64,000 bases of DNA from Azorinus chamasolen. Taxonomy: Eukaryota > Mollusca > Bivalvia > Cardiida > Solecurtidae. A model generated the notes under the pieces. The model was not told the origin of the DNA. It searched no databases and saw only the letters and a program-made list of their open reading frames with translations. Positions 150 to 58,365 of the stretch are shown piece by piece (position 1 is the first letter of the stretch; every line of letters begins with the position of its first letter). The stretch spans positions 28,340,078 through 28,404,077 of the forward strand of contig OY755252.1 in NCBI GenBank assembly GCA_963576725.1. The letters are read 5' to 3'. The position numbers were made by a program, and so were the translations under genes.

Positions 150-1200
150 TAATATTATGAAACTGGAATTCATTATCACAGTTTGTTTTGGTTAGTGTTT
201 GAAGGACATTCCTTTATTACAAACAATAACGGGAGGGTACGACAAAAACGAAATAGTACAGATATCCGACGTTCTCCTTCCATTTCTGGATTTAAGAGGT
301 CGCCTTCATAGAGTACTAAACCTTTCTTGTCGGCGTACATGCAAAGAGGCCAGCGTGATTGCCAACTGCAAAAGGGTTGACAACCAAACATGCAGTATGT
401 TGTAGTACTACAGGATCATATCCCTTTTTAATGATTTTTTAACATATTTGATGAACAAAGTGAGAAAATGGGTATGTCCAATAATTTTTTGAAGTTTGTA
501 AATCACATCACCATAAAATTCCGGATGTGAAATACCGTGTCGCAGAAGCGCCTTGAGATTACATTGGTACTTGCCAATAAGCGAGAGATTTCGATAGTAA
601 AATTTAGAGAAAGTTTTTTTTAGTTTATGGTATCTATATCCTTGCTTAAGCAGTTTTTCAGTTAAAATGAGATTTCGACTGTTAAAATCGTCAATAGATG
701 AACAAGCTCTAGCAAAACGAATAAGTTGAGATATATAAACCCCGTAAGATAGAGCACGGGGAACATCTCCGTCAAGATGAGGAAAATTTACAATATTAAA
801 ATCAAAATCATCTCTTTTGTCATATATTTTAGAAGAAATCATTCCATTATCAATTTTAAGGTATAGATCAAGAAACGCTGCATAATTGTCGGACGGGTTA
901 GCTTTATTCAATTTGAGTTCTTTAGGATAAATTGTAGGAATTAGAGCATCAAAGAAAGGGTTATCTAAGTTAAAAATATCATCCAAATATCGACAAGTTT
1001 CATTGAAGGTTTTTATAACATCTTCTTGTGATTGAGGATTCAAACTCAACATGAAATCTCTCTCATAGCAGTACAAAAACAAATCTGCGACAACTGGTGC
1101 ACAATTCGTACCCATAGGAATACCAATTACCTGACGATATATGGCATTCCCATAACGTACAAATATGTTATCCAAAAGAAAAGTTAGCCATTGTGAAACA
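150..1200 (-). pseudogene. Penelope-like element family A, C-terminal RT half plus 3' UTR (5'-truncated)
   Basis: On the minus strand this encodes the palm/thumb half of a PLE reverse transcriptase. Visible are the motif IPMGTNCAP, then YCYERDFM, then the catalytic YLDD box (in RYLDDIFNLDN), then the family's conserved thumb segments RFARACSSIDDFNSRN and GYRYHKLKKTFSKFYYRN. Homology to the other copies begins near 1200 (LTFLLDNIFVRYG); everything N-terminal, including motif A and the endonuclease, is missing. A one-base deletion in an A-run near 425-435 shifts the frame, so the true C-terminus (GYDPVVLQHTACLVVNPF...) continues in another frame to a TAG at 316-318. A SECIS-like hairpin follows immediately. 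Dead copy; assignment to PLE is firm, assignment to the permuted Naiad-type clade rests on the copy at 55.9-59 kb. Confidence 0.9.
255..317 (-). promoter_or_regulatory. SECIS-like hairpin of PLE-A
   Basis: Read on the minus strand: AGTAC, then ATGA (complement of 306-309), a 5' stem GAC/CTCTT, an apical loop that begins AAA, a 3' stem AGGAG/GTC, then a GGAT containing the GA of the quartet, then GTACT closing the basal helix. This is the arrangement of a eukaryotic SECIS element, the 3' UTR signal for reading UGA as selenocysteine. It begins at the TAG stop of the RT frame. Structure was judged by eye, not folded computationally. Confidence 0.72.
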
Positions 1201-4575: not shown

Positions 4576-7386
4576 TTAAAGAGGAAGTCCCTACAATGAT
4601 CGCATATTTTCAATAATATCATAACAATTTGTATTTGTTATGCTCTATCATTATTATGAAGGTTCCCAATTTGAACTTATATCGAAACAAGATGTGTTTG
4701 TGAAACACTATGCCCCCTCAATATGATATTTGGCCCTGAAGGATGACCTTGACCTTGACATGTCACTCCAAAAACTGCGCAGCTTCATGGGGTACACATG
4801 CATACCAAATATTAAGTCTGTATCTCTACTGGTTCAAAAGTTATGGCCAATGTTAAAAGTTGGTGACCTTTGACCATGAAGGATGAACTTGACCTTGACA
4901 TGTCACCCCTCAAACTGTGCGGCTTCATGAGATTCACATGCATACCAGTATCAAGGCTGTATATCTACTGGTTCAAACGTTATGGCCAATGTTAATGACC
5001 TTTGACCTTCAAAGATGACCTTGACCTTGACATGTCACCCCTCAAACTGTGCAGCCAAATGAGAAACACATATATACAAACTATCAAGTCTGTATCTCTA
5101 CTGGTTCAAAAGTTATGGCCAATGTTAAAGTCGGTGACCTTTGGCCCTGAAAGATGACCTTGACCATGACATGTCACCCCAAACTGTGCAGCTTCATGAG
5201 GTACACATGCATACCAAATGTCAAGTCTGTATCTACAGGTTCAAAAGTTATGGCCAGTGTTAAAGTCGGTGACCTTTGACCCTAAAAGATGACATTTACC
5301 TTGACATGTTGCCCCTCAAAATGTGCAGCTTCATGAGATACACATGCATACCAAATATCAATACTCTATCTCTATTGGTTGAAAGGTTATGGCCAATTTG
5401 AATGGCGACCTTTGATCCTGAAGGATGACCTTGACATGTCACCCCTCAAACTGTGCAGCTTCGTGAGATACACAAGTATGCCAAATATCAAGTCTCTATC
5501 TGTACTGGTTCAAAAGTTATGGCCAATGTTAAAGTCAGTGATTTGACCCATATGTTTGACCTCTGACCTTTAAGGGTGACCTTGACCTTTACATGCGGCT
5601 TTATGAGATACATATGCATGCCAAATATCAAGTTTCTATCTGTACTGGCTCAAAAGTTATGACCAATGTTAAAGTTACAGAAAAACAGACAATTTGACCT
5701 TTGACCCTGACGAATGACATTGACATGTCACCCCTCAAAATGTGCAGCTTCATGAGATACACAAGCATGCCAAATATCAAGTCTCTATCTCTACTGGTCC
5801 AAAAGTTATGGCTAATGACCTCTGACCTTGAAGGATGACCTTGACCTTGACATGTCACTCTCAAAAATGTGCAGCTTTATGAGATACATATGCATGCAAA
5901 ATATCAAGTCTCTATCTGCACTGGCTCAAAAGTTATGACCAATGTTAAGGTTGCGTTAAAGTTACAGCCTAAAAACAGACAATTTGACCTTTGACCCTGA
6001 AGGATGACCTTTACCTTGACATGTCACCCTTCAAAATGTGCAGCATTATGAGATACACAAGCATACCAAATATCAAGTCTCTATCTCTACTGGTCCAAAA
6101 GTTATGGCCACTGTTAAAGTCGGTGATTTGACCCATATATTTGACCTCTGACCTTGATGGATGACCTTGACCTTGACATGTCACCCCTCAAAATGTGCAG
6201 CTTTATGAGATACATACACATGTCAAATATCAAGTCACTATCTGTACTGGCTCAAACGTTATGACCAATGTTAAAGTTACAGACAAAGAAACAGACAATT
6301 TGACCTTTGACCCTGAAGGATGAACTTGACCTTGACATGTCACCCCTCAAAATGTACGCTTCATGAGATACGCAAGCATGCCAAATATCAAGTCTCTATC
6401 TTTACTGGTCCAAAAGTTATGGCCAATGTTAAAGTCGGTGATTTGACCCATATATTTGACCTCTGACCTTGAAGGATGACCTTGACCTTGACATGTCTCC
6501 TCTCACAAATGTGCGGCTTTATGAGATACATATGCATGCCAAATATCAAGTCTCTATCTGTACTGACTCAAAAGTTATGACCAATGTTAAGGTTGCGTTA
6601 AAGTTACAGCCAAAAAACAGATAATTTGACCTTTGACCCTGAAGGATGACATTAACCTTGACATGTCACCCTCAAAATGTGCAGCTTTATGAGATACACA
6701 AGCATGCCAAATATCAAGTCTCTATCTCTACTGGTCCAAACGTTATGGCCACTGTTAAAGTCGGTGACTTGACCCATATTTGACCTCTGACCTTGAAGGA
6801 TGACATTGACCTTGACATTTCACCCCTCAAAATGTGCGGCTTTATGAGATACGTATGCATGCCAAATATCAAGTCTCTATCTGCACTGGCTCAAAAGTTA
6901 TGACCAATGTTAAAGTTGCTGACAAACAGACAAATAGACAAACAAACAGACAGGGCAAAACAATATGCCCCCCAGATCAAATCTGGGGGGCATAAAAATC
7001 CCCTGTAATACAAATAAACCGATTTCATCAATACTGATACTTTTTGTTCTACAACACAATATTATCGGCTTTTTCCGTTAAGTTCTTCCGCGTTTTGCCG
7101 ATGATCACCCGATCCCTCCATTGTTTACGTAATAGCTTTCTCGAAAGTGGTCGGAGAATCGCGAATAGGGCGAACAGTTACGAAACTAAAACCCTACCCG
7201 AATAAAACTGAAACATCGGGGAGTAAATCCGGGATCGGCGATATCAAACACATGGATGTTTTGTCATTATAAACGGTAATTGGATGGGGCTTTTAGCGAT
7301 ATACTACTTTTCAGCATATAAACAAATGAGTTTTGTATATTTTAAGTGTTTATAAAACGCGTCAAATGTAGGGACATCCCCTTTAA
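4576..7386. mobile_element. Non-autonomous element with inverted ends carrying a satellite array
   Basis: The left end reads TTAAAGAGGAAGTCCCTACA and the right end, inverted, TTAAAGGGGATGTCCCTACA (18 of 20 identical), with TTAA at both extremes. The interior from about 4690 to 6990 is a tandem array built on gatgaccttgaccttgacat, followed by tgtcacccctcaaa and ccaaatatcaagtctctatc. Early units are about 132-140 bp apart (4751, 4891, 5023, 5162); later ones acquire an extra acagacaatttgacc segment. The array closes with a small hairpin in gccccccagatcaaatctgg. No transposase is present. TTAA borders would fit a piggyBac-like target preference, but they may simply be part of the inverted repeat. 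Confidence 0.6.
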
Positions 7387-10600: not shown

Positions 10601-10639
10601 ATGCTGAGTTACTCGATCTCTCATGCGGATCTAAGCTGT

Positions 10640-11100
10640 TTGCATATGATTAAAGAAAAACGTCTACGATCTCTTCTTTATAAAGGTCCAAAATATAGAA
10701 TAAAATCCTTGATAGATTTCAACTCTTGTCGAGGTCAGATTGCTGAGGCTTTACAAATTGTTAGTATTAAATGGTGTCGTAGAGAACAAGCTGAGTCTAG
10801 AATTGCGATTAGACATCTTAAAAAGGGTTTACATTATTATCATTTAAAATCATTCAAAATACGTCTTTTATTAATCAAATATGTTAAAAAGCACTGAAAA
10901 GAGATATGAACCTATAGTACTACAACATACTACATGTTTGGTTGTCAACCGTTTTACAATTGGCAATAATACTGGCCTCTTTGCATGTAAGCCGACAAGA
11001 AATGTTTAGTACTCTATGAAAGCGATCTCTTAAATCCGGAAACGGAAGGAGGTTGTCGGATATCTATACTATTTCGTTTTTTGTCGTACCCTTTATTACT
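10640..11100 (+). pseudogene. PLE family A copy with large internal deletion, plus 3' UTR
   Basis: The left part encodes the pre-RT region (IKEKRLRSLLYKGPKYRI, LIDFNSCRGQIAEAL, IKWCRREQAE) and then IAIRHLKKG. It then jumps to the extreme C-terminus (IKYVKKHLKRDM and, in the next frame, EPIVLQHTTCLVVNRFTIG) ending at the TAG at 11007-11009. All catalytic RT motifs are deleted. A SECIS-like hairpin follows the stop. The left deletion border, at RHLKKG, coincides with that of the B copy at 25755. Confidence 0.85.
11008..11070 (+). promoter_or_regulatory. SECIS-like hairpin of PLE-A
   Basis: AGTACTCT, then ATGA at 11016-11019, stem GAT/CTCTT, apical AAA, stem AGGAG/GTC, then CGGAT with the 3' GA. 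Compared with the copy at 255-317 the stem pair A-T/C-G is retained as A-T plus a T-G wobble, so pairing survives a base change. Confidence 0.7.
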
Positions 11101-11174: not shown

Positions 11175-11300
11175 AATGGGTCAACTGTTAGCTTAATACG
11201 TTGTCTGAAAGCCATTCCTATCCTTAGCTTTGTTGCCACTGTACTTGACTATTGGGTAACCTGTTAGCTTAATAGGTTGGCTGAAAGCCATTCCTATTCT
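11175..11300 (-). repeat. Tandem ~76-bp repeats in the LINE 3' UTR
   Basis: Two units with landmark ttg(t/g)ctgaaagccattcct at 11201 and 11277 (76 bp apart). They sit immediately 3' of the antisense LINE ORF, and the same unit type follows the second LINE copy near 27.2 kb. Confidence 0.65.
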
Positions 11301-12290
11301 GAACAAAACTGTCCTAGTAACAAATGTTGAAAGAATGCGTTTTCAGACACTTTTTGAAACAGGACAGTGACCTTGCGACTAATGCCTGAAGGTAGAGCAT
11401 TCCAAAGTTTTGGAGCTGCATACATGAAACTTCTCTCACCGTATTTTACCTTACGACTTTTTGGCACAACCAAAGACAATGATCTACTTGCTGACCTTAA
11501 CTCTCTGCGCGGCCTGCATACGTCAAGCATGTCGACAATGTACTTGGGAGATTCATTGTGCATGGCTTTATACGTAAGAGTCAGAATTTTGAATTTATTC
11601 CGATGTTGAACCGGAAGCCAGTGAAGTTCCTTCAAAACCGGCGTGATATGATTATATCGAGGAGTTCTGGTTATGATGCGGGCTGCTGTGTTTTGCACAA
11701 ATTTCCGCAATGAGTTGTTTGAAATTCCATGCAGCAGTGAATTGCAGTAGTCTATTTTCGATGTAACAAGAGAGTTTACCAAAGGCTTGGTAGCATCAGG
11801 TGAGAGGTACTTTCTGATGTAGCCTATTTGTCGGAGCTGTGCATAACTAGACCTACACACGGCATTGACATGTGATGTCATATCAATTTGTGAATCGAGT
11901 CATGCACCGAAAGTCTTTATACACAAAGATGGCCTGATTTTAGAGGGTCCTACTTGCACACTAACCTCTGCAGGTACTTTTGTGTTTTTTGTATGAAACA
12001 GAATGACCTCAGTCTTGTCAGTATTGAGCTTCAGCATGTTCTGATGCATCCAAGAGAGTACTTCTTTGAGACTGTCCTCAACTCGCGATAAAGCCTCTTG
12101 TTGACAGGAAATGCCCTTGTGCTTAAAGGACAGGTATAACTGTGAGTCATCGGCATAGAAATGGTGATTAAGCCCATGGTTTTGCAGATTGAGCCGACAG
12201 GTTTCGTATACATTATGTAGTGTTTTGGTCCTAGGACGGAACCCTGTGGAACTATTGACATCACATTTATAAAGAACAACCATACTGGTT
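11294..12290 (-). pseudogene. CR1/L2-like non-LTR retrotransposon, RT C-terminal part (5'-truncated)
   Basis: On the minus strand, in shifting frames, it encodes PQGSVLGP, then HHFYADDSQLYLSF with the catalytic YADD box, WMHQNMLKLNTDKTEVILF, then after a break SSYAQLRQIGYIRKYLS, SKIDYCNSLLHGI, ITPVLKELHWLPVQHR, RRELRSASRSLSLVVP and APKLWNALPSGI. This motif series is typical of CR1/L2/Rex-group LINE ORF2 C-termini. The apurinic endonuclease and N-terminal RT are absent. At least two frameshifts make it dead. Clade placement is by motif memory and could shift within the CR1 group. Confidence 0.85.
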
Positions 12291-15659: not shown

Positions 15660-15895
15660 GAGTGCTAAAAGTTTGACACTTGTGCAAAACTAAAGGTAAG
15701 ACATTGGTCCTCAATCATAAATATGTTTTTGTTAATTAACTCTTTTGCATAGTCATGACTATTAATGTATAACCCGAAAAATGACGGAAAAAACACTAGA
15801 AGATGGTGAAAACTATATCTGAAATCAGCTGCGATGCTCCAGATACACCAACTTAAGTTATTATACATAAAACATTCTCAATGAGAGTATTATAT
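15660..15895 (+). repeat. Unit of a ~364-bp tandem repeat, left of PLE-B
   Basis: Landmarks tgactattaatgta, atggtgaaaac, gcgatgctccagata, ttattatacataaaac and caatgagagta. The same order recurs at 18590-18785 on the other side of the PLE-B copy. Confidence 0.65.
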
Positions 15896-15914: not shown

Positions 15915-17843
15915 ATGGCTTCTGACTTAAATATTGATGTTAATACCCCTATTTCTTGAGATTGTAGCATTTCTAGCTTTTGCTATAAACCAGTTGGTCA
16001 TGTCATTACTGGTAATTTTGATATCATTAAGGATAAACGTCTCAGGACCCTCCTAACTAAAGGACCTAAATATAGATTACCTTCCCTTATTGATTTTGAC
16101 GCTTGTCGAACTCATATTGCGGAAGCTATTCAAGAATTCTGCATCAAATGGTGTCGACGAGAACATGCTGATGTTAATGCCCTTTCGGATTGGAAGAAAT
16201 GTATTTTCGATATTATTGATACGCGAATAACTTTTTACAAATCTAATTACCATCTTTTACCACCTCGACCTAGAGTTACATTTCGCTACTTGAAGAAAAA
16301 CATTTCTAATTTTCATTCAGATTATGTTCTTGTTCCTGCTGACAAGGCATCAAACAATGTAATCATTATTTGAAGATTGTATTATGTTGATGTTTTAAAG
16401 AAGGAGCTAACTGATTCAAAAACTTATATAACAGTTCAAACACCTGAAAAAGATATAGTCTCGGAACATGTAAAAATGTGCAATAATTTTAAGTCTGGTC
16501 CTAACATAAAACAACATAAACTTTCTACTTTGTACTGGATTCCGAAACTACATAAAAACCCTTATAAGTCGCGTTTTATTGCCAACTCTAGCTGTTGTAC
16601 CACTACTAAATTATCTATACTTTTGACGTCCTGTCTTACTACGATCAAAGAACATGTTAAACGCTACTGTGATAAAATATATGAAAATTCTGGTATTAAT
16701 GTTTTTTGGTCCATAAAAAATTCAAATGATGTTTTAACAAAACTTGAAAATGAACAGTATAACATTTCTTTACTGAGCTCTTATGATTTCTCTACACTCT
16801 ATACTACTCTACCTCACCATCTTATAAAGGATAAACTTATTAAATTAATAGAAAAAACCTTTGCCAGAGAAAACAAAATGTTCATTGCTTGTAATGTTCA
16901 ACGTTCATTCTTTTCGAATTCAGAAGTTGAACATTACACAATGTGGACTTGCCTTGATGTTTGTAGATCTCTTACCTTTCTTTTAGATAATATATTTGTG
17001 CGTTATGGGGATACCATATATCGTCAAGTTGTTGGTATACCCATGGGTACAAATTGTGCCCCTCTTGTTGCAGATTTGTTTTTGTATTGCTACGAGAGGG
17101 ATTTTATGCTTAGCTTAAAACCTGATACACAGACCGATATTGTTAATGCTTTTAATAAAACTTCAAGGTATTTAGACGATATTTTGAATTTAGATAATCC
17201 TTATTTTGATGCTATGGTTTCTTCAATCTACCCAAAAGAACTGTCTTTAAACAAAGCTAATCAATCTGACATTAATGCTTCATTTTTAGATTTGAATCTT
17301 TCAATTACAAATGATAAAGTTTCGTCCAAAGTATACGATAAAAGAGAAGATTTTAATTTTAAAATTGTTCATTATCCTTTTCTAGATGGGGATGTGCCAC
17401 GTTCTACATCTTATGGGGTTTATATTTCTCAACTTATTAGGTTTGCCCGAGCCTGTTCTTTGCTTGAAGATTTTAACAGACGTAATTTAGTTATAACTGA
17501 TAAACTTCTTAAGCAAGGTTACAGATATCACAAACGTCGGAAAACCTTTTCTAAATTTTATTATCGAAATTTACCTCTCATTAGTAAATATAATTGCAAT
17601 CTACGGACGTTACTGCGACAAGGCATTTCTCAACCAGAATTTTATGGGGATGTTATCTACAAACTTAGGAAAATTCGGGGTCATATCCATTTTCATGATT
17701 TGTTTATTAAACGCATTAAAACATTTAAAAAGAAAGGTTATGATCCTATTATATTGCAACACACTGCATGTTTGGTTATCGACCCTTTTACAGTCGGTAG
17801 CTACGCTTCCCTCTTTGCTTGCGCGATGACAGGCCGAGGGTAG
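15915..17843 (+). CDS. Reverse transcriptase of PLE-B with two in-frame TGA (putative selenocysteine) codons
   Basis: Reading from ATG 15915 gives about 642 codons to the TAG at 17841-17843, interrupted only by TGA at 15957-15959 and 16371-16373. Regions in order: SDLNIDVNTPIS then TGA then DCSISSFCYKPVGHVITG; LRTLLTKGPKYRLPSLIDF; IKWCRREHADVNALSDWKK; PADKASNNVIII then TGA then RLYYVDVLK; STLYWIPKLHKNPYKSRFI; motif A YDFSTLYTTLPHH (Asp about residue 291); IPMGTNCAP (Met about 377); catalytic YLDD (419-422); thumb RFARACSLLEDFNRRN and YHKRRKTFSKFYYRN. The RT copies RNA into DNA during target-primed transposition. Both TGAs are conserved in family A, which argues for recoding rather than decay. 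The copy lacks its N-terminal GIY-YIG endonuclease, so it is not autonomous. Start codon choice is tentative because the copy is truncated. Confidence 0.8.
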
Positions 17844-17907
17844 TACTCTATGATGGTATACTCTTAAACTTGGATACAGGAGGAGCTTACCAGACTCATG
17901 TATTACT
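17842..17907 (+). promoter_or_regulatory. SECIS-like hairpin of PLE-B
   Basis: AGTA (17842-17845) pairs with TACT (17904-17907). ATGA is at 17850-17853; stem GGTA (17855-17858) pairs with TACC (17888-17891); CTCTT (17861-17865) pairs with AGGAG (17881-17885); AAA (17866-17868) opens the apical loop; AGAC (17892-17895) supplies the 3' GA. In family A the first stem is GAC/GTC, here GGTA/TACC, so pairing is kept with different bases. This is a strong sign of selection on RNA structure. Confidence 0.78.
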
Positions 17908-18432
17908 TTTTCCCTGTCGTGCCCTTAACGGCTTACCTGCAGGTGCTCTGACTTCAGCAAAGTCATTGAGTACATATTTGACGGATTGTCACAGTTATTA
18001 TGCTATGTTTTACATGTTGTCCTGTGTTCACCGTCGTCTATGTTGTGGGTAAGTCCAGCGGCGATACCTTTATTTACAATATTTGTAACGCTAGGGTGAC
18101 TTTGAGAGAAGTGTGAGGTTAGGACGTCCGTAAACCGGTTTAAACCCCCAGTGGTGTTTTTGCTGCTGACCGTGCCAAGGCGGTACTCTCTTTGTCACCC
18201 TTCCTTTTGTTTGCCTTGCGTCTTTGTGCTTGTTGTTTGTTCATGTTGTGGAACGTTTGTCCCTGTTTCTTGTGTGTATTTTGGTGTTTTCTGTGTTCAT
18301 TTCGTGTGTGTGTGTGTGTGTGTGTGCGTTTAGGTGTGTGGTTGTGTGTGTGTGTGTCATGCTGTCTATCGGTGTTTTGGTGGTGGTTGCGTCTTGCATG
18401 TGGCTTTGCCTGCTTGACTTTACTACTTTTCC

Positions 18433-19030
18433 ATTTATTCGCATGTTTATTGAGTTTTTTAATATCCATAGCAGACATAGTATACGTCCGGACAACGTCA
18501 GCAAATAGAGAAGATAACATTATATATCAGGGTCTTTGAGAGCTGGTAGGTAACAATATCAACATGTTACCAAACATAAAATAAATACACTGGTCTTTGA
18601 TTTAGAATGTCATGTTGTTAATAAGTTCATTGGCATATTCATGAATATTAATGTGAAACCCCCTAAAATAAGGGAACAAGACAGGGAAATGGTGAAACCA
18701 GATCTGAATCATATGTGATGCTCCAAATGCATAGAGATGTGTTATTATACATAAAACTACTTCATTGAGAGTAATCTAGCTGATAAAAACTTGTCTCGCT
18801 GGGTCATCTGCTTCTTATTAAGTTTTAGAGTTTCCATTGCAAATATACGTCCGGACAGCGTCAACGCATAGAGAATGTAAAAACGTTACATCACAGGTTC
18901 TTGGGCAGCTGGTAGCTAGCATAATCAATATGTCACCTAATATATAAGAAATACAATGGTCTTTGATTTAGAATATCATGTTAATCAGTTAATTAGCATA
19001 TTCATTAATATTAAAACTTAAATCGAACAA
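18433..19030 (+). repeat. ~364-bp tandem repeat, right of PLE-B
   Basis: The landmark tatacgtccggaca occurs at about 18480 and 18844 (364 bp apart), followed by tcttt/gggcagctggta and ggtctttgatttagaat. The second unit is partial. The unit at 15660-15895 completes the array on the left, so PLE-B sits inside it. Confidence 0.65.
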
Positions 19031-23379: not shown

Positions 23380-23656
23380 AAGTAAGGGTGACAAGGAGAG
23401 TACCGCCTTGGTGCGGTCAGTGGCAAAATCACTACTGGAGGTTTAAGCGGTTCACGGACGTCCTAACTTCACACTTATCTCCCTAGTTTAACAAGTAGTG
23501 TACGTATCCCCGCCAGATTTTTACACAACACAGGGGACGGTAAATTCATGGCAATATGTAAAAAACTGTGAAAAGTCATTTAAATATATACTCAATGACT
23601 TTGCTGAAGTCAGAGCAACTGCAGGGAAGCCGATAAGGGCACGACAGAGAAAACGC

Positions 23657-23717
23657 AAAATATGAGTCTGGTAATCTCACCCCGATTAGAGTTTAAGAGT
23701 ATACTATCATAGAGTAC
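23657..23717 (-). promoter_or_regulatory. SECIS-like hairpin of PLE-B (degraded)
   Basis: Minus strand: AGTACTCT, ATGA, AGTATACTCTTAAA in the 5' arm, TTACCAGAC in the 3' arm. The quartet and apical AAA persist; the CTCTT partner is partly lost. Confidence 0.55.
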
Positions 23718-23904
23718 TACCCTTGGCCTGTCATCGCGCAAGCAAAGAGGGAAGCGTAGCTGCCGACTGTAAAGGGGTCAATAACTAAACATGCAGTGAG
23801 TTGCAATATAATAGGGTCATAACCTTTCTTCCTAAAGGTTTTAATAAGTTTTATTAACAGATCTTGAACATGGATATGACCCCGAACTTTCCTAACATAT
23901 TCTG

Positions 23905-25754: not shown

Positions 25755-26896
25755 CGTCTTCCAACTAAACCTAGCCTTTCCTTTAGACATCTTAAAAAAG
25801 GTTTCGTCCAAAATATACGATATTTTAATTTTAAAATTGTTAATTATCCTTTTCTAGATGGAGATGTGCCCCGTTCTACATCTTATTGGGTTTATATTTC
25901 TCAACTTATTCGGTTTGCCCCAGCATGTTCTTTGCTTGAAGATTTTAACAGTCGTAATTTAGTTATAACTGATAAACTTCTTAAGCAAGGTTACAGATAT
26001 CACAAACTTCGGAAATCTAACATTTTATTATCGAAATGTACCACTCATTAGTAAATATAATTGCAATCTACGGACGTTACTGCGACAAGGCATTTCTCAA
26101 CAAGACTTTTATGGGGATGTTATCTACAAACGTAGGAAAATTCGGGGTCATATCCATTTTCATTATTAGTTTAAAAAACGCATTAAAACATTTAAGAAGA
26201 AAGGTTATGATCCCATTTTATTTCAACGCACTGCATGTTTGGTTATCGACCCTTTTGCAGACGGTAGCTACACTTCCCTCTTTCCTTGCGCGATGACAGG
26301 CCGAGGGTAGTACTCCATGATGGTATACTCTTAAACTCAGATACGGGATAAGCTTACCAGACTCATGTATTACCTTTTCCCTGTCGTGCCCTTAACGGCT
26401 TACCTGCAGGTGCTCTGACTTCAGCAAAGTCATTGAGTACATATTTGACGGATTGTCACAGTAATTATGCTATGTTGTTGTCCTGTGTTCACCGTCGTCT
26501 ATGTTGTGGATAAGTCCGGCAGGAATACCTTTATGTACACTATTTGTAAAGCTAGGGTGACTTTGAGAGAAGTGTGAGGTTAGGACGTCCGTAAACCGAT
26601 TTAAACCCCCAGTGGTGTTTTTGCTACTGACCGTGCCAAGGCGGTACTCTCTTTGTCACCCTTCCTTTTGTTTGCCTTGTGTCTTTGTGTTTGTGATTTT
26701 GTTCATGTGTGGAGTGTTTGTCTCTGGTTCTTGTGTGTCTGTTTGTGTTTTCTGTGTTCATCTCGTGTGTGAGTGTGCGTTTGCGTGTGTGGTTGTGTGT
26801 GTGTGTATGTATGTGTGTGTCATGCTGTCTATCGGTGTTTTGGTGGTGGTTGCGTCCTGTATGTTGCTTTGCCTGCTTGACTTTACTACTTTTCCA
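25755..26896 (+). pseudogene. PLE family B copy with internal deletion, SECIS and tail
   Basis: Begins RLPTKPSLSFRHLKK, then jumps to the thumb-proximal part (SSKIYD, FNFKIVNYPFLDGDVPRSTS, SQLIRFAPACSLLEDFNSRN, QGYRYHKLRK), so motif A, MGTNCAP and YLDD are deleted. The C-terminus runs to the TAG near 26309. The 3' tail continues to ttttccattg at 26896. Tail frames (26612-26980) are not genes. Confidence 0.82.
26309..26373 (+). promoter_or_regulatory. SECIS-like hairpin of PLE-B
   Basis: AGTACTCC, ATGA (26317-26320), GGTATACTCTTAAA, then GGATAAGC, TACCAGAC, TGTATTAC. GGTA/TACC pairing and quartet intact; the AGGAG partner of CTCTT is degraded. Confidence 0.62.
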
Positions 26897-27270: not shown

Positions 27271-28310
27271 ATAGAAGCCGATTCAAGTAGAAGTTGGCCT
27301 TTGTCCAAACCCTGCCGGGCTTCAACCTGCTCTGTACTGAAAGTCCTGACCAGGTTCGTGAACACGAAAAATGTCCGTGGGAACCTCTGACATTTAAGAT
27401 ATTTGACATCACTAACCGTGAGGATCCGCACGAATGTCTATCTGGTCAATGGAAAATATGCAACATATCGTTTCCTAAACTGTCCTAGTAACAAATGTTG
27501 AACAAAAGGCGTCTTCAGATACCTTTTGAAACATGCCAGTGACCATGCGTTTCTAATACCTGGCGGTCTAACATTCCAAAGTTTTGGAGGTGCATTACAT
27601 GGAACCTTTCTCACCGTAATAACCTTAAAACAATTTGGCTCAATAAACGACAATGATCTACTTGCTGACCTTAACTCTCTGCGCGGACTGTACATGCCAA
27701 GCATGTCGACAATGTACTTTGGAGATTCATTGTTCATGACTTTATACGTAAGTGTCAGAATTTTGAATTCAATCCGATGATGAACAGGGAGCCAGTGAAG
27801 TTCCTTCAGAACCGGCGAGATATGATTATATCGAGGAGTTCCGGTTATTACGTGGGCTGTTTTTTTGCACTCTTTGAAATTTCCGCAGTGAGTTGTTTGA
27901 AATTCCACGCAACAGTGAATTACAGTACTCTATTTTTGATGTAACATGAGAGTTCACCGAAATATTGGTAGCATTAGGTGAGAGATACCTTCTTATATGG
28001 CCTATTTGCCAGAGTTGTGCATAACTAGACCTACACATGGAATTGACATGTGATGTCATATCTATTTATGAATCGAGACATGCACCGAGATTTTTTATAC
28101 ACAATGATGGTCTGATTTGAGAGGGTCCTACTGGCACATTAACCTCTGCATGTACTTCCGTCTTTTTTGTATGAAACAGGATGACCTCAGTTTTGTCAGT
28201 ATTGAGCTTCAGCATGTTCTGGTGCATCCAAGAGACCCTTTCTTTGAGACAGTCCTCAACTCACGATAAAGCTTCTTGTTGACAGGTATAACTGAGTCAT
28301 CGGCATAGAA
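27271..28310 (-). pseudogene. CR1/L2-like LINE fragment, second copy
   Basis: Minus strand encodes, in broken frames, HVNSMCRSSYAQLWQIGHIRR, SKIEYCNSLLRGI, ITGTPRYNHISPVLKELHWL, RRELRSASRSLSF and PKLWNVRPPGI, matching the copy at 11.3-12.3 kb. It ends at 28310 after a decayed segment equivalent to the YADD neighbourhood. Compared with the first copy it keeps ~200 bp of extra 3' sequence (27275-27480). Confidence 0.82.
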
Positions 28311-29254: not shown

Positions 29255-30585
29255 TAGACATAAATGGAAAAGTAGTAAAGTCAAGCAGCCAAAGCCACAT
29301 GCAAGACGCAACCACCACCAAAACACCGATAGACAGCATGACACACACACACACAACCACACACCCAAACGCACAAGCACACACACATACGAAATGAACA
29401 CAGAAAACACCAAAAGACACACAAGAAACAGGGACAAACATTCAACAACATGAACAAACCACAAGCACAAAGACGCAAGGCAAACAAAAGGAAGGGTGAC
29501 AAAGAGAGTACCGCCTTGGCACGGTCAGCAGCAAAAACACCACTGGGGGTTTAAACCGGTTTACGGACGTCCTAACCTCACACTTCTCTCAAAGTCACCC
29601 TAGCTTTACAAATATTGTAAATAAAGGTATCCCCGCTGGACTTACCCACAACATAGACGACGGTGAACACAGGACAACATGTAAAACATAGCATAATAAC
29701 TGTGACAATCCGTCAAATATGTACTCAATGGCTTTGCTGAAGTCAGAGCACCTGCAGGTAAGCCGTTAAGGGCACGACAGGGAAAAAATAATACATGAGT
29801 CTGGTAAGCTCCTCCTGTATCCAAGTTTAAGAGTATACCATCATGGAGTACTACCCTCGGCCTGTCATCGCGCAAGCAAAGAGGGAAGCGTAGCTACCGA
29901 CTGTAAAAGGATCGATAACCAAACATGCAGTGTGTTGCAATATAATAGGATCATAACCTTTCTTTTTAAATTTTTTAATGCGTTTTATAAACAAATCATG
30001 AAAATGGATATGACCCCGAATTTTCCTAAGTTTGTAGATAACATCCCCATAAAATTCTGGTTGAGAAATGCCTTGTCGCAGTAACGTCCGTAGGTTGCAA
30101 TTATATTTACTAATGAGAGGTAAATTTCGATAATAAAATTTAGAAAAGGTTTTCCGAAGTTTGTGATATCTGTAACCTTGCTTAAGAAGTTTATCAGTTA
30201 TAACTAAATTACGTCTGTTAAAATCTTCAAGCAAAGAACAGGCTCGGGCAAACCTAATAAGTTGAGAAATATAAACACCATAAGATGTAGAACGTGGCAC
30301 ATCCCCATCTAGAAAAGGATAATTAACAATTTTAAAATTAAAATCTTCTCTTTTATCGTATACTTTGGACGAAACTTTATCATTTGTAATTGAAAGATTC
30401 AAATCTAAAAATGAAGCATTAATGTCAGATTGATTAGCTTTGTTTAAAGACAGTTCTTTTGGGTAGATTGAAGAAACCATAGTATCAAAATAAGGATTAT
30501 CTAAATTCAAAATATCGTCTAAATACCTTGGAAGTTTTATTAAAAGCATTCACAATATCGGTCTGTGTATCAGGTTTTAAGCTAA
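29255..30585 (-). pseudogene. PLE family B copy: RT C-terminal half, SECIS and tail
   Basis: Minus strand from about 30585: LSLKPDTQTDIVNAFNKTS, a one-base shift, then RYLDDILNLDNPYFD (YLDD present), SKVYDKREDFNFKIVNYPFL, RFARACSLLEDFNRRN, YHKLRKTFSKFYYRN and the C-terminus FACAMTGRG at the TAG near 29850. The 3' tail runs to ttttccattt at ~29262. N-terminal half missing. It is the closest relative of the 15.9-18.4 kb copy. Tail frames at 29136-29502 are not genes. Confidence 0.85.
29787..29852 (-). promoter_or_regulatory. SECIS-like hairpin of PLE-B
   Basis: Minus strand matches 17842-17907 almost exactly: AGTACTCC, ATGA, GGTATACTCTTAAA, AGGAGGAGC, TACCAGAC. All paired blocks are intact. 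Confidence 0.72.
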
Positions 30586-33754: not shown

Positions 33755-34178
33755 ATAATATTAACCAGTTCACGGACGTCCTAACCTGACATTTTCCTCA
33801 AAGTCAATCTAGCTTAACAAATAACCTAAATAAACGTATCCCCTCCAGACTTCCCCACATCATAGAAGACGGTACGCACAGGACACTATGTATAACATAA
33901 CATGACAACAACTGTGGAAGTCATTTAAATATGTACTCAATGACTTTGCTGAAGTCAAAGCAACTGCAGGGAAGCCATTAAGGACGCGACAGAGAACAGA
34001 GAACAGGCAATCGTTGAATCTGGTAAGCTCATCCCGTTTCTGAGTTTAAGAGTATATCACCATAGAGTACTATCCTCGGCCTGTCAACGTGCAAGCAAAT
34101 AGGGAAGCGTAGCTACGGACTGTAAATGGGCCAACATGCAATGCGTTGCAATATAATGGGGTCATAACCTTTCTTCAT
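33755..34178 (-). pseudogene. PLE family B 3' end (C-terminus, decayed SECIS, UTR)
   Basis: Minus strand carries a decayed GYDPIILQRIAC, SVATLPYLLAR and the stop, then AGTACTCT followed by ATGG instead of ATGA, CTCTTAAA, TTACCAGA. So the hairpin's essential ATGA is mutated. UTR continues to about 33755. It is cut at 34178 by a foldback. Confidence 0.7.
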
Positions 34179-55949: not shown

Positions 55950-57800
55950 AAAATCATCTCTTTTGTCATATATTTTAGAAGAAATAATTCCATTATCAAT
56001 TTTAAGGTATAGAAATTTCCAATGAAGGCTTTTTTACATCTTCTTGTGATTGTTGATTCAAACGTAACATGAAATCTCTCTCATAGCAGTACAAAAACAA
56101 ATCTGCGACAAGTGGTGCACAATTCGTACCCATAGGAATACCAATTACGTGACGGTATATAGCATTCCCATAACGTACAAATATATTAGCCAAAAGAAAG
56201 GTTAGTGATTCGCAAACTTCTGATTGGTCCAATTGGTGTAATATTTCATTTGCTCGTCAGTACAGAAAGGTTTTTCAGCATAATATGCCAAAAGTGATGT
56301 TTTTTTCCCAGGCAAATACTTTCTGGATTAAATTAGTAAGATTATCTTTAATAAAAATATGAGGAAGAGTTGTGTATAAAGTAGAAAAATCGTAAGTGCT
56401 TGCAGTGGATTCAAGATTCCTTTTGCTCTTAAGTTTGTTTCAGACCTCTGAAGAATTCTTAATAGACCAGAAGAGATTTATTCCAGACTTTTCATAAAAT
56501 TACAAAAATGAGTCAAGCAGGAAACACCACATACAGAACGCCAGGTCTTATCACAGTAGAAATTTACATGTTCTTTTATCTTCGTTAAATAATAAGTCAA
56601 ATGTACAGACAATTTAGTAGTTGTACATGAGCTAGAATATGCAATGATACGCGTTTTATATGGTTTTTGTGTAGTTTTAGTAACCAATACATTGTAGGAA
56701 GTTTATGTTGTGTAATTTTAATATCGGTTCCAAGTTGTTCACACTTTTTGACATGGTCTGAAACGATGGTCTTTTCGTCAGTATAAACTGAAATGTATGT
56801 CTTGGTATTAATAATTTCCTGCTTCAATACATCGATATAATGTTATCGTCAAATAATAATCACATTATTCGATGCCTTATAAGTAGAAACAAAAATATTT
56901 TGAATGGAAATCCTGTAAACCCTTTTTAAGATGTCTTAAAGAAATTCTAGGTTTAGGTGGAAGAATGTGTTTATTAGAGCTATTAGAAAAAGAAATGCAT
57001 TTGACAATTATATCAAAATTAGTTTTTTCCAATTTTTTCCAATTTTCCAATTAGAAAGAGCATTAGACTAATCATGTTCTCCTGGACACCATTTAATATT
57101 AAAATTGTGTAAAGCCTCCGCAATCTGAACTCGACTAGAGTGAAAATCTATCAAGGATGGTATTCTATATTTGGGACCTTTATTCAAAAGAGACCGTAGA
57201 CGTTTATCTTTAATAATCTCAAAATTACCAGTAATCACATGATCAGCCGGCAAAAAGGCAAAGTTTTGAGGTGGCACACTCTCAATTATCAGGAATAATA
57301 TCATTAATATTAAGGTCGGCCACAATTTTATTATAGTTGAAAATTGTATTTCTAATGGGTTTGTTATATTTGTAGCCGATAATAGGTGATTCTGTATTTT
57401 TAAAGTTAGTAATAGTGTCAATTACAGTTTTGTCTCTAAAAATACTTCGGAGGTCAATAAAATCATTACCTTTACTAATAAAAGGACTTTTCAAGAATAT
57501 TCTTTGGTGTTCAGATAATTTGTCAATGTGCGGTCTGAGAACATGTAGAGTAAAGCTTTGTATCAAACTAGCCGTTCCTATGAGAAGGTCTGATCTAAAA
57601 ATGATTTTATCGGCTTGCTTGTCAATTTCTTTTAATGAAGATATTGATAAAGAGGAAAGTCTAGAAAGCATGGCATGTCTATCAGAAGTAAGACGTAAAG
57701 TATGTAAATCAAGAATACGAGAATTTCGTTTAATATTACCATTTTTACGAATGCCATGTGATCGAGATTTGCGTTTTCTTAAAGAAAAAAATTAGAAAAT
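55950..57800 (-). pseudogene. Reverse transcriptase portion of PLE-A with conserved in-frame TGA codons
   Basis: Segments: HAMLSRLSSLSISSLKEIDK, DFIDLRSIFRDKTVID, YNKIVADLNINDIIPDN, TGA (57292-57294), ECATSKLC, one-base shift, ADHVITGNFEIIKDKRLRSL, KYRIPSLIDFHSSRVQIAEA, IKWCPGEHD; later KASNNVIII, TGA (56849-56851), R, a TAA, HYIDVLKQEIINTKTYISVY, MYWLLKLHKN, then FLLANIFVRYGNAIYRHVIG and PMGTNCAPLVADLF. Beyond the TGAs there are ordinary frameshifts and a TAA, so this copy is dead. Motif A region near 56380 is decayed. Confidence 0.85.
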
Positions 57801-57859
57801 ATCTATATCAGGATCTTTTGAAATATTTCAAGTCTGGTAAATATTATCATATCAGCCTA

Positions 57860-58245
57860 AAGGAAAATGTGTTTGCTTTTTTTAATCTAATTTAATTCAG
57901 ATATAAATCTAGATTTCGATTTTATTCTACTTGTAGCATCCTTATCATATGATATATGCTCTACAATTTGTACTGAAACATCTTTAAAAGAATGGATAGA
58001 CTTCCGAAAGTGTTTGTATAAAAAATGGTGTAGTTTACGATTTCGACACTGGTATACGTGCTTCAAAGCACGCCCTGTTTGTCCTACGTACTGTATACCG
58101 CATCTAGGCGCGTTTCAAGTTAAAACATAAATAACGTTAGTAGTAGTACAATCAACGTCTGAGTTTATCTTGATATTAAATGTTCTATCATTTACTGTTG
58201 ATTAAATAGTGGAAGTACAACAAATGTTACTACAACATATTCACC
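57860..58245 (-). pseudogene. GIY-YIG endonuclease domain of PLE-A
   Basis: Minus strand: ICCSNICCTSTI (Cys-rich, preceding), FNIKINSDVDCTTTNVIYVL, T, TGA (58115-58117), NAPRCGIQYVGQTGRALKH, LHHFLYKHFRKSIHSFKDVS, VQIVEHISYDKDATSRIKSK and SRFI. The strings IQYVGQT (the Y-V-G of the YIG box), CG before it and the final RIK-x-K-x-x-I are hallmark PLE GIY-YIG features; the domain nicks target DNA for integration. The TGA sits where PLE endonucleases usually have a Cys (xxCxxCGxQYVG). An additional TGA precedes ICCSN (58241-58243) and a TAA at STI shows decay. Confidence 0.82.
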
Positions 58246-58365
58246 TCTTAGCAAAGCACTTTTGGATAATCGGATACACTCTGTGTCGCTTGTATAAGGA
58301 CCGTTTACAAATAGAAGAAACATTTTGGATAGCAGATTTGGTGAAGGTATAACTCTTGATCCATT

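Follow-up and report, generated by a model that had tools for sequence, protein, structure and literature searches.

The window, the whole stretch of 64,000 nucleotides analysed here (positions 28340078–28404077 of contig C18, in a genome of 1.72 Gb and 137 contigs), holds copies of two families of Penelope-like retrotransposons (PLEs), called PLE-A and PLE-B (Table 1). PLE-B contributes a frame of 642 codons (15915–17840) that ends in TAG (17841–17843) and, as an earlier note on this DNA had pointed out, is broken only by TGA at 15957–15959 (site 1) and TGA at 16371–16373 (site 2). The PLE-B alignment starts at 15921 in 19 of the first 20 copies fetched, and the 3′ UTR is common to copies until about position 18438. 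The flanks of this copy (15729–15889, 18447–18773, and 18815–19014) are similar to one another (73–77%), as if the element had been inserted into a multi-unit repeat, and two PLE-B copies have GT repeats within their 3′ UTR (18304–18357 and 26765–26820). A further PLE copy (10616–10795) ends short of both sites. Elsewhere, the window carries two tandem arrays, at 1538–2642 and 4729–6923; one unit measures about 317 bp (repeated 3.5 times, 99% matches) and the other about 127–484 bp, in overlapping registers. Two related copies (11294–12283 and 27438–28286; identity 86% across 813 bp) contain frames of 195, 127, and 156 aa and look like pieces of another retrotransposon.

Table 1. PLE copies, TGA sites, and SECIS-like hairpins in the window (positions are those of the window)
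Feature	Position	Strand	Remarks
PLE-B copy	15921..18438	+	5′-truncated, endonuclease part absent in window; RT frame 15915–17843 and 3′ UTR
Site 1 of B, TGA (Sec, predicted)	15957..15959	+	first Cys of CxC linker motif
Site 2 of B, TGA (Sec, predicted)	16371..16373	+	ADKASNNVIII-U-R, RT part
TAG stop codon of B	17841..17843	+	TAG in 38/38 copies reaching the codon
SECIS-like hairpin of B	17842..17904	+	starts inside TAG stop; Rfam SECIS_1 23.2 bits, E 0.054
SECIS-like hairpin, A-family 3′ end	255..317	-	RT frame 408–1226 upstream; SECIS_1 26.0 bits, E 0.0029
SECIS-like hairpin, another A-family 3′ end	11007..11071	+	SECIS_1 27.6 bits, E 0.0011
SECIS-like hairpin, second B copy	29769..29856	-	alignment and core scan
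SECIS-like hairpin, third B-like copy	26305..26392	+	alignment
SECIS-like hairpin, fourth B-like copy	23637..23722	-	alignment
Decayed SECIS, B-like copy	33984..34072	-	core ATGG, not ATGA
PLE-A copy, decayed	56000..58330 (ends approximate)	-	endonuclease at N-terminus, then CxC linker and RT; frame broken by frameshifts and private stops
Site 0 of A, TGA (Sec, predicted)	58115..58117	-	IYVLT-U, endonuclease; TGA in 5/5 homologous A copies
Site 1 of A, TGA (Sec, predicted)	57282..57284	-	U-E-C; TGA in 12/12 copies
Site 2 of A, TGA (Sec, predicted)	56849..56851	-	NNVIII-U-R; TGA in 9/12 copies

A first look at the genome gave 1772 candidate copies of PLE-B, of which the best 40, the window copy included, were scored; all are 100% identical over a 761-base query, and, as the best-scoring copies were chosen, older B copies lie outside this sample. 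Site 1 is TGA in all 40 copies and site 2 in 39, the remaining copy (locus L016) having TCA. Other in-frame stops number ten in 25,344 codons (four TAA, three TAG, and three TGA), each confined to a single copy. Within the endonuclease part, TGA stands at codons −299 (SDLD-U) and −288 (IYVLT-U) relative to site 1 in all 17 copies that reach there, and the 380 upstream codons contain four further stops, one occurrence each. One copy, L027, can be followed from a Met (the start codon being a guess) through four TGAs to TAG, a frame of about 1063 residues. The B stretch that includes sites 1 and 2 writes Cys as TGT or TGC at 20 codons and has TGA at only two fixed columns. Single B copies that have lost a part provide natural controls: L016, with TCA at site 2, and L028 and L045, with deletions in the SECIS.

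In PLE-A, TGA occupies the same alignment columns at both sites (U-D-C in B and U-E-C in A at site 1, NNVIII-U-R in both at site 2), as had been claimed; of the two A codons originally named, 56849–56851 was correct, whereas 57292–57294 was 10 bases off, the true codon being 57284–57282. DNA identity between A and B is only 67% over 1.26 kb, and third codon positions vary most on either side of site 2 (differences at positions 1/2/3 of 15/11/23 in 65 codons, 19/10/33 in 61, and 8/3/25 in 56, with residues 256–310, at 32/29/34 in 54 codons, omitted for a misframed alignment). The first look for A gave 2268 candidates, from which 41 matches were listed and 12 copies fetched, the best full-length matches outside the window being 82–90% identical. 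Among the 12 fetched copies, site 2 has three exceptions to TGA (TAA, CGA, and GGA, once each), which count against a reading as Sec. Site 0 of A is the same codon as −288 of B, and the DVDC codon of A is TGT in four of five homologous copies and a gap in the fifth. With the VLT-U codon TGA in A and B, and the SDLD-U codon TGA in B only, there are thus four such codons in B and three in A.

A further TGA of the window's A copy, at 58241–58243 (minus strand), lies on a conserved Cys and was considered as a fourth Sec codon of A; it is TGC in six of six homologous copies and is a mutation private to this copy rather than a family-wide Sec site. A chance figure of P 1.7e-6 was discarded because its calculation had counted this codon, and the codon is likewise included in both Fisher tests that compared TGA with TAA/TAG at Cys columns (A alone, p 0.09; A and B together, p 0.037). 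The assertion that the other stops of A are unshared holds for those checked (58204, 57889, 57854, 57830, 57794, and 57070, all non-stop in 12 other copies), except that the TAA at 56845 recurs in one copy. TGA 57854 (mostly Leu codons in the copies), TGA 57830 (mostly Gly), and the TAA and TAG codons checked were rejected as Sec or shared sites and assigned to decay.

Relatives of the encoded proteins were taken from two protein searches (the best 120 of 1446 matches and the best 120 of 257), giving 229 distinct sequences. Among the matches listed, all 70 relatives spanning site 0 have Cys there; Cys is also the residue of 99 out of 105 at site 1 (five Trp, one Ala) and of 123 out of 135 at site 2 (ten Trp, one Ser, one Tyr). 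Columns with at least 80% Cys number 5 of 642 in B, both TGAs among them (P = 4.9e-5 for two random B codons both falling on such columns), and 10 of about 919 in the wider alignment, the four shared TGA columns among them. The earlier placement of site 1 at a Cys/Sec position of a Cys-rich motif agrees with this result, the site being the first Cys of the CxC linker. Neither outcome that the earlier note had named as counter-evidence appeared: Cys is the prevailing residue of the relatives at both sites, and TGA in the genomic copies is far more frequent there than stops at other positions. The Trp residues of P0006, P0008, and P0073 agree with the family except at these two sites; we infer that the exceptions stem from a gene caller that applied a UGA=Trp code.

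In a third search, for which the part from site 0 to site 1 served as query (best 120 of 325 matches), 67 relatives end exactly before site 1, 38 have Cys at site 1 and end exactly before site 2, and 15 end elsewhere; the predicted genes of many relatives therefore stop at these sites, the stop letter itself not being visible. Viral contigs yielded no relative and genome contigs three (L001–L003), of which L001 was used and L002 is uninformative. The DNA of L001, a distant relative, encodes Cys at each of the four sites; no SECIS match came from its 3′ part, but this is one broken sequence. L001 and L002–L003 are PLE pieces of eukaryotic type whose contigs are catalogued as bacterial (Planctomycetota, mussel symbionts), probably through contamination.

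Turning to the 3′ ends, the frame closes on an arrangement of AUGA, 12 nt, AAA, a hairpin, a 3′ arm, and GA, which is a SECIS-like structure with compensatory changes between A and B. Pairing was assessed in five B-like and two A-family copies of the window: paired cells make up 88.7%, as opposed to 37.6–48.5% with the partner slid, and the covariation score exceeds that of all 500 shuffles. A core scan of both strands gave four matches (17850 plus, 29844 minus, 21235 minus, and 309 minus), compared with 0.35 per shuffled window; all four lie at PLE 3′ ends or 3′-end remnants, and the scan misses three copies present in the alignment as well as the decayed one. Of the 40 scored B copies, 36 contain the AUGA-12-AAAC core together with its 5′ flank; among the four that do not, one differs in the flank, two carry deletions, and one is missing the end. 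Several results count against the structure. The Rfam SECIS_1 model aligns over its full length at three 3′ ends with 23.2–27.6 bits, in each case short of the gathering score (35), and a search of the whole window at that threshold found nothing. Taken alone, the B hairpin folds no better than shuffled sequences (z −1.0; 29/200), 22 of 500 shuffles attain the five pairs changed on both sides, and the seven copies have no surplus of additional pair types.

In both A and B, the TAG stop begins helix I of the SECIS. Among the 113 relatives that reach the frame end, 27 have an MMxxx C-terminus; read back from the protein letters as AUG AUG Gxx ... UAA, this gives AUGA, 12 nt, and AA, so that the stop codon would form part of the SECIS loop and supply its conserved AA. 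Two others, P0074 and P0087 (IWRxLSK), fit an arrangement in which the stop is the core UGA of the SECIS, and the remaining 84 of 113 show neither. The history of site 1 was followed in a FastTree of the linker with 189 rows, in which the site-1 states come mostly from ORF ends, many forks are weak, and long branches leave the details unsure. A UGA-type site 1 occurs in 72 rows, which together with 42 Cys rows make up a single branch of 114 (support 96); the 75 rows outside it are all Cys. On this tree, at least 18 changes between Sec and Cys are needed, eight of them forced by well-supported branches, and the two residues appear to have switched repeatedly.

Several features of A and B fit Naiad-type PLEs, with an N-terminal GIY-YIG endonuclease, a CxC linker, a C-terminal RT part, and pseudo-LTRs. 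In A and in the fuller B copies, an endonuclease of the CGIQYVGQTGR type stands ahead of linker and RT; the Pfam GIY-YIG model is passed by relatives P0125 and P0147 and falls below cut-off in P0123 and P0130. At the linker, U-D-C and U-E-C align to the C-x-C of relatives, with UGA replacing the first Cys. The RYLDD motif is intact in B, and Pfam RVT_1 matches of the relatives lie below cut-off. As a sign of pseudo-LTRs, 10 of the 40 B copies have 3′ UTR sequence ahead of site 1, in direct orientation in nine cases. With Pfam, the window's decayed A piece gave no match and other window pieces no clear match; nothing meaningful emerged when solved structures were searched with a profile. Naiads are characterised by the CxC linker motif, an insertion-in-fingers domain, and an insertion bias for microsatellites. 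Craig et al. reportedly named them in 2021, and those of spiders and clams are said to encode selenoproteins with multiple Sec; we accordingly assign A and B to a kind that is reportedly already described. A literature search covering few subscription journals brought up no paper recognised as treating Naiad selenoproteins. An excerpt of PMC11167929 cites Craig, Yushenova, Rodriguez, and Arkhipova (2021, Mol Biol Evol 38:5005), and Naiad is listed as a PLE group in an excerpt of PMC10941475.

Dead copies might have acquired the TGAs through chance mutation of Cys codons, or the mutations of one dead master might have been spread by copying, TGT and TGC being one base from TGA; the window's A copy is plainly decayed, and its TGA at 58243, on a conserved Cys, really is private decay. 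The copy counts already refute this account, in line with the original argument against random decay: TGA is present in nearly every copy examined of both families (40/40 and 39/40 in young B copies, 12/12 and 9/12 in A) and other stops are rare, with ten in 25,344 codons of B. A carries TGA at the same codons despite its 67% DNA identity to B, the ORFs of many other relatives stop at these codons, and a dead frame has no need of a SECIS-like hairpin. We therefore regard decay as highly improbable.

It is a little less improbable, if still quite unlikely, that the codons are kept as UGA without selenium, either suppressed by a near-cognate tRNA or retained as stops to give separate or truncated proteins. 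UGA is the leakiest stop, the frame is conserved between the sites, so that separate products are conceivable, and decoding of several UGAs is described as inefficient in most selenoproteins in an excerpt of PMC8310308. Plain suppression does not, however, predict that each shared TGA should fall on one of the 10 of about 919 columns with at least 80% Cys; the SECIS-like hairpin at the frame end and the alternation with Cys at sites 1 and 2 in close relatives also tell against it. A changed genetic code, with UGA read as Cys (as in Euplotes) or Trp, would place UGA where Cys is expected and would suit the Trp found at the sites in some database relatives. We give it almost no credence: B uses 20 TGT/TGC Cys codons against TGA at two fixed columns, old copies carry stray TGAs at non-Cys codons as ordinary decay, a SECIS would serve no purpose, and the Trp letters are best explained by a gene caller.

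The TGA codons are conserved in both families and equivalent to Cys, and we consider it very probable that A and B are multi-selenocysteine Naiad-type PLEs in which a single long frame encodes a selenoprotein, with UGA read as Sec. The selenoprotein interpretation first put forward for this locus is supported computationally, with a SECIS-like element, not part of the original observation, at the frame end; its two sites belong to a larger set of four in B and three in A. We infer selenium insertion at these UGAs, by which residues that are normally invariant cysteines would be decoded as selenocysteine. B would contain four Sec, in SDLD-U and IYVLT-U (endonuclease), U-D-C (linker), and VIII-U (RT), three of these four sites falling within or next to Cys-rich endonuclease and linker motifs; A would contain three, keeping Cys at DVDC. 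Sec machinery is recruited via SECIS and comprises SBP2, eEFSec, and Sec-tRNA. In these elements, a single SECIS at the frame end could recruit the host's SBP2, eEFSec, and Sec-tRNA and so redefine all of the UGAs, with TAG terminating translation; the full endonuclease-RT would be made only if every UGA is decoded.

From the repeated swaps, Sec and Cys would seem almost interchangeable at the endonuclease and linker sites, and a host that decodes Sec well would tolerate both, which a mollusc host would fit. The less familiar features are the overlap of the SECIS with the end of the coding frame and the apparent repeated Sec/Cys switching at site 1. Somewhat better than even, in our judgement, are the chances that SECIS and translation end form one module and that the eight or more Sec/Cys swaps at site 1 constitute a natural record of Sec gain and loss. 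A mobile element would here be keeping a costly and rare residue at three or four positions, and would offer a compact SECIS joined to a stop codon. With about two thousand first-look candidate copies per family (candidates may overlap), many near-identical natural copies make Sec, Cys, and other codons comparable. There is also a pitfall for annotation, in that gene callers cut such elements at the UGAs or seemingly translate them with a UGA=Trp code.

Among known systems, the closest are the Naiad selenoproteins (Craig et al. 2021), which reportedly share with A and B the N-terminal endonuclease, CxC linker, RT, and several in-frame UGAs; the three sites of A, the four of B, and the SECIS at the stop may or may not figure in that work. 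Naiads and other PLEs with an N-terminal endonuclease and Cys at all of the sites (for example P0123, P0125, and L001) have the same domain order and conserved cysteines and differ in having Cys codons or residues in place of UGA. Selenoprotein P, which is unrelated to A and B in sequence family, likewise has a frame in which numerous UGAs are read as Sec, but is a secreted host protein and not a mobile element. A title in a reference list credits it with up to 132 UGAs in molluscs. SECIS of cellular genes lie in the 3′ UTR, with fowlpox as an exception, according to an excerpt of PMC8310308, and fowlpox virus glutathione peroxidase 4 thus resembles A and B in that its SECIS is not confined to the 3′ UTR. 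The same excerpt places the fowlpox SECIS inside the coding sequence of the viral enzyme, whereas that of A and B starts at TAG and, unlike the fowlpox arrangement, the SECIS of relatives of A and B seems to contain the stop codon itself.
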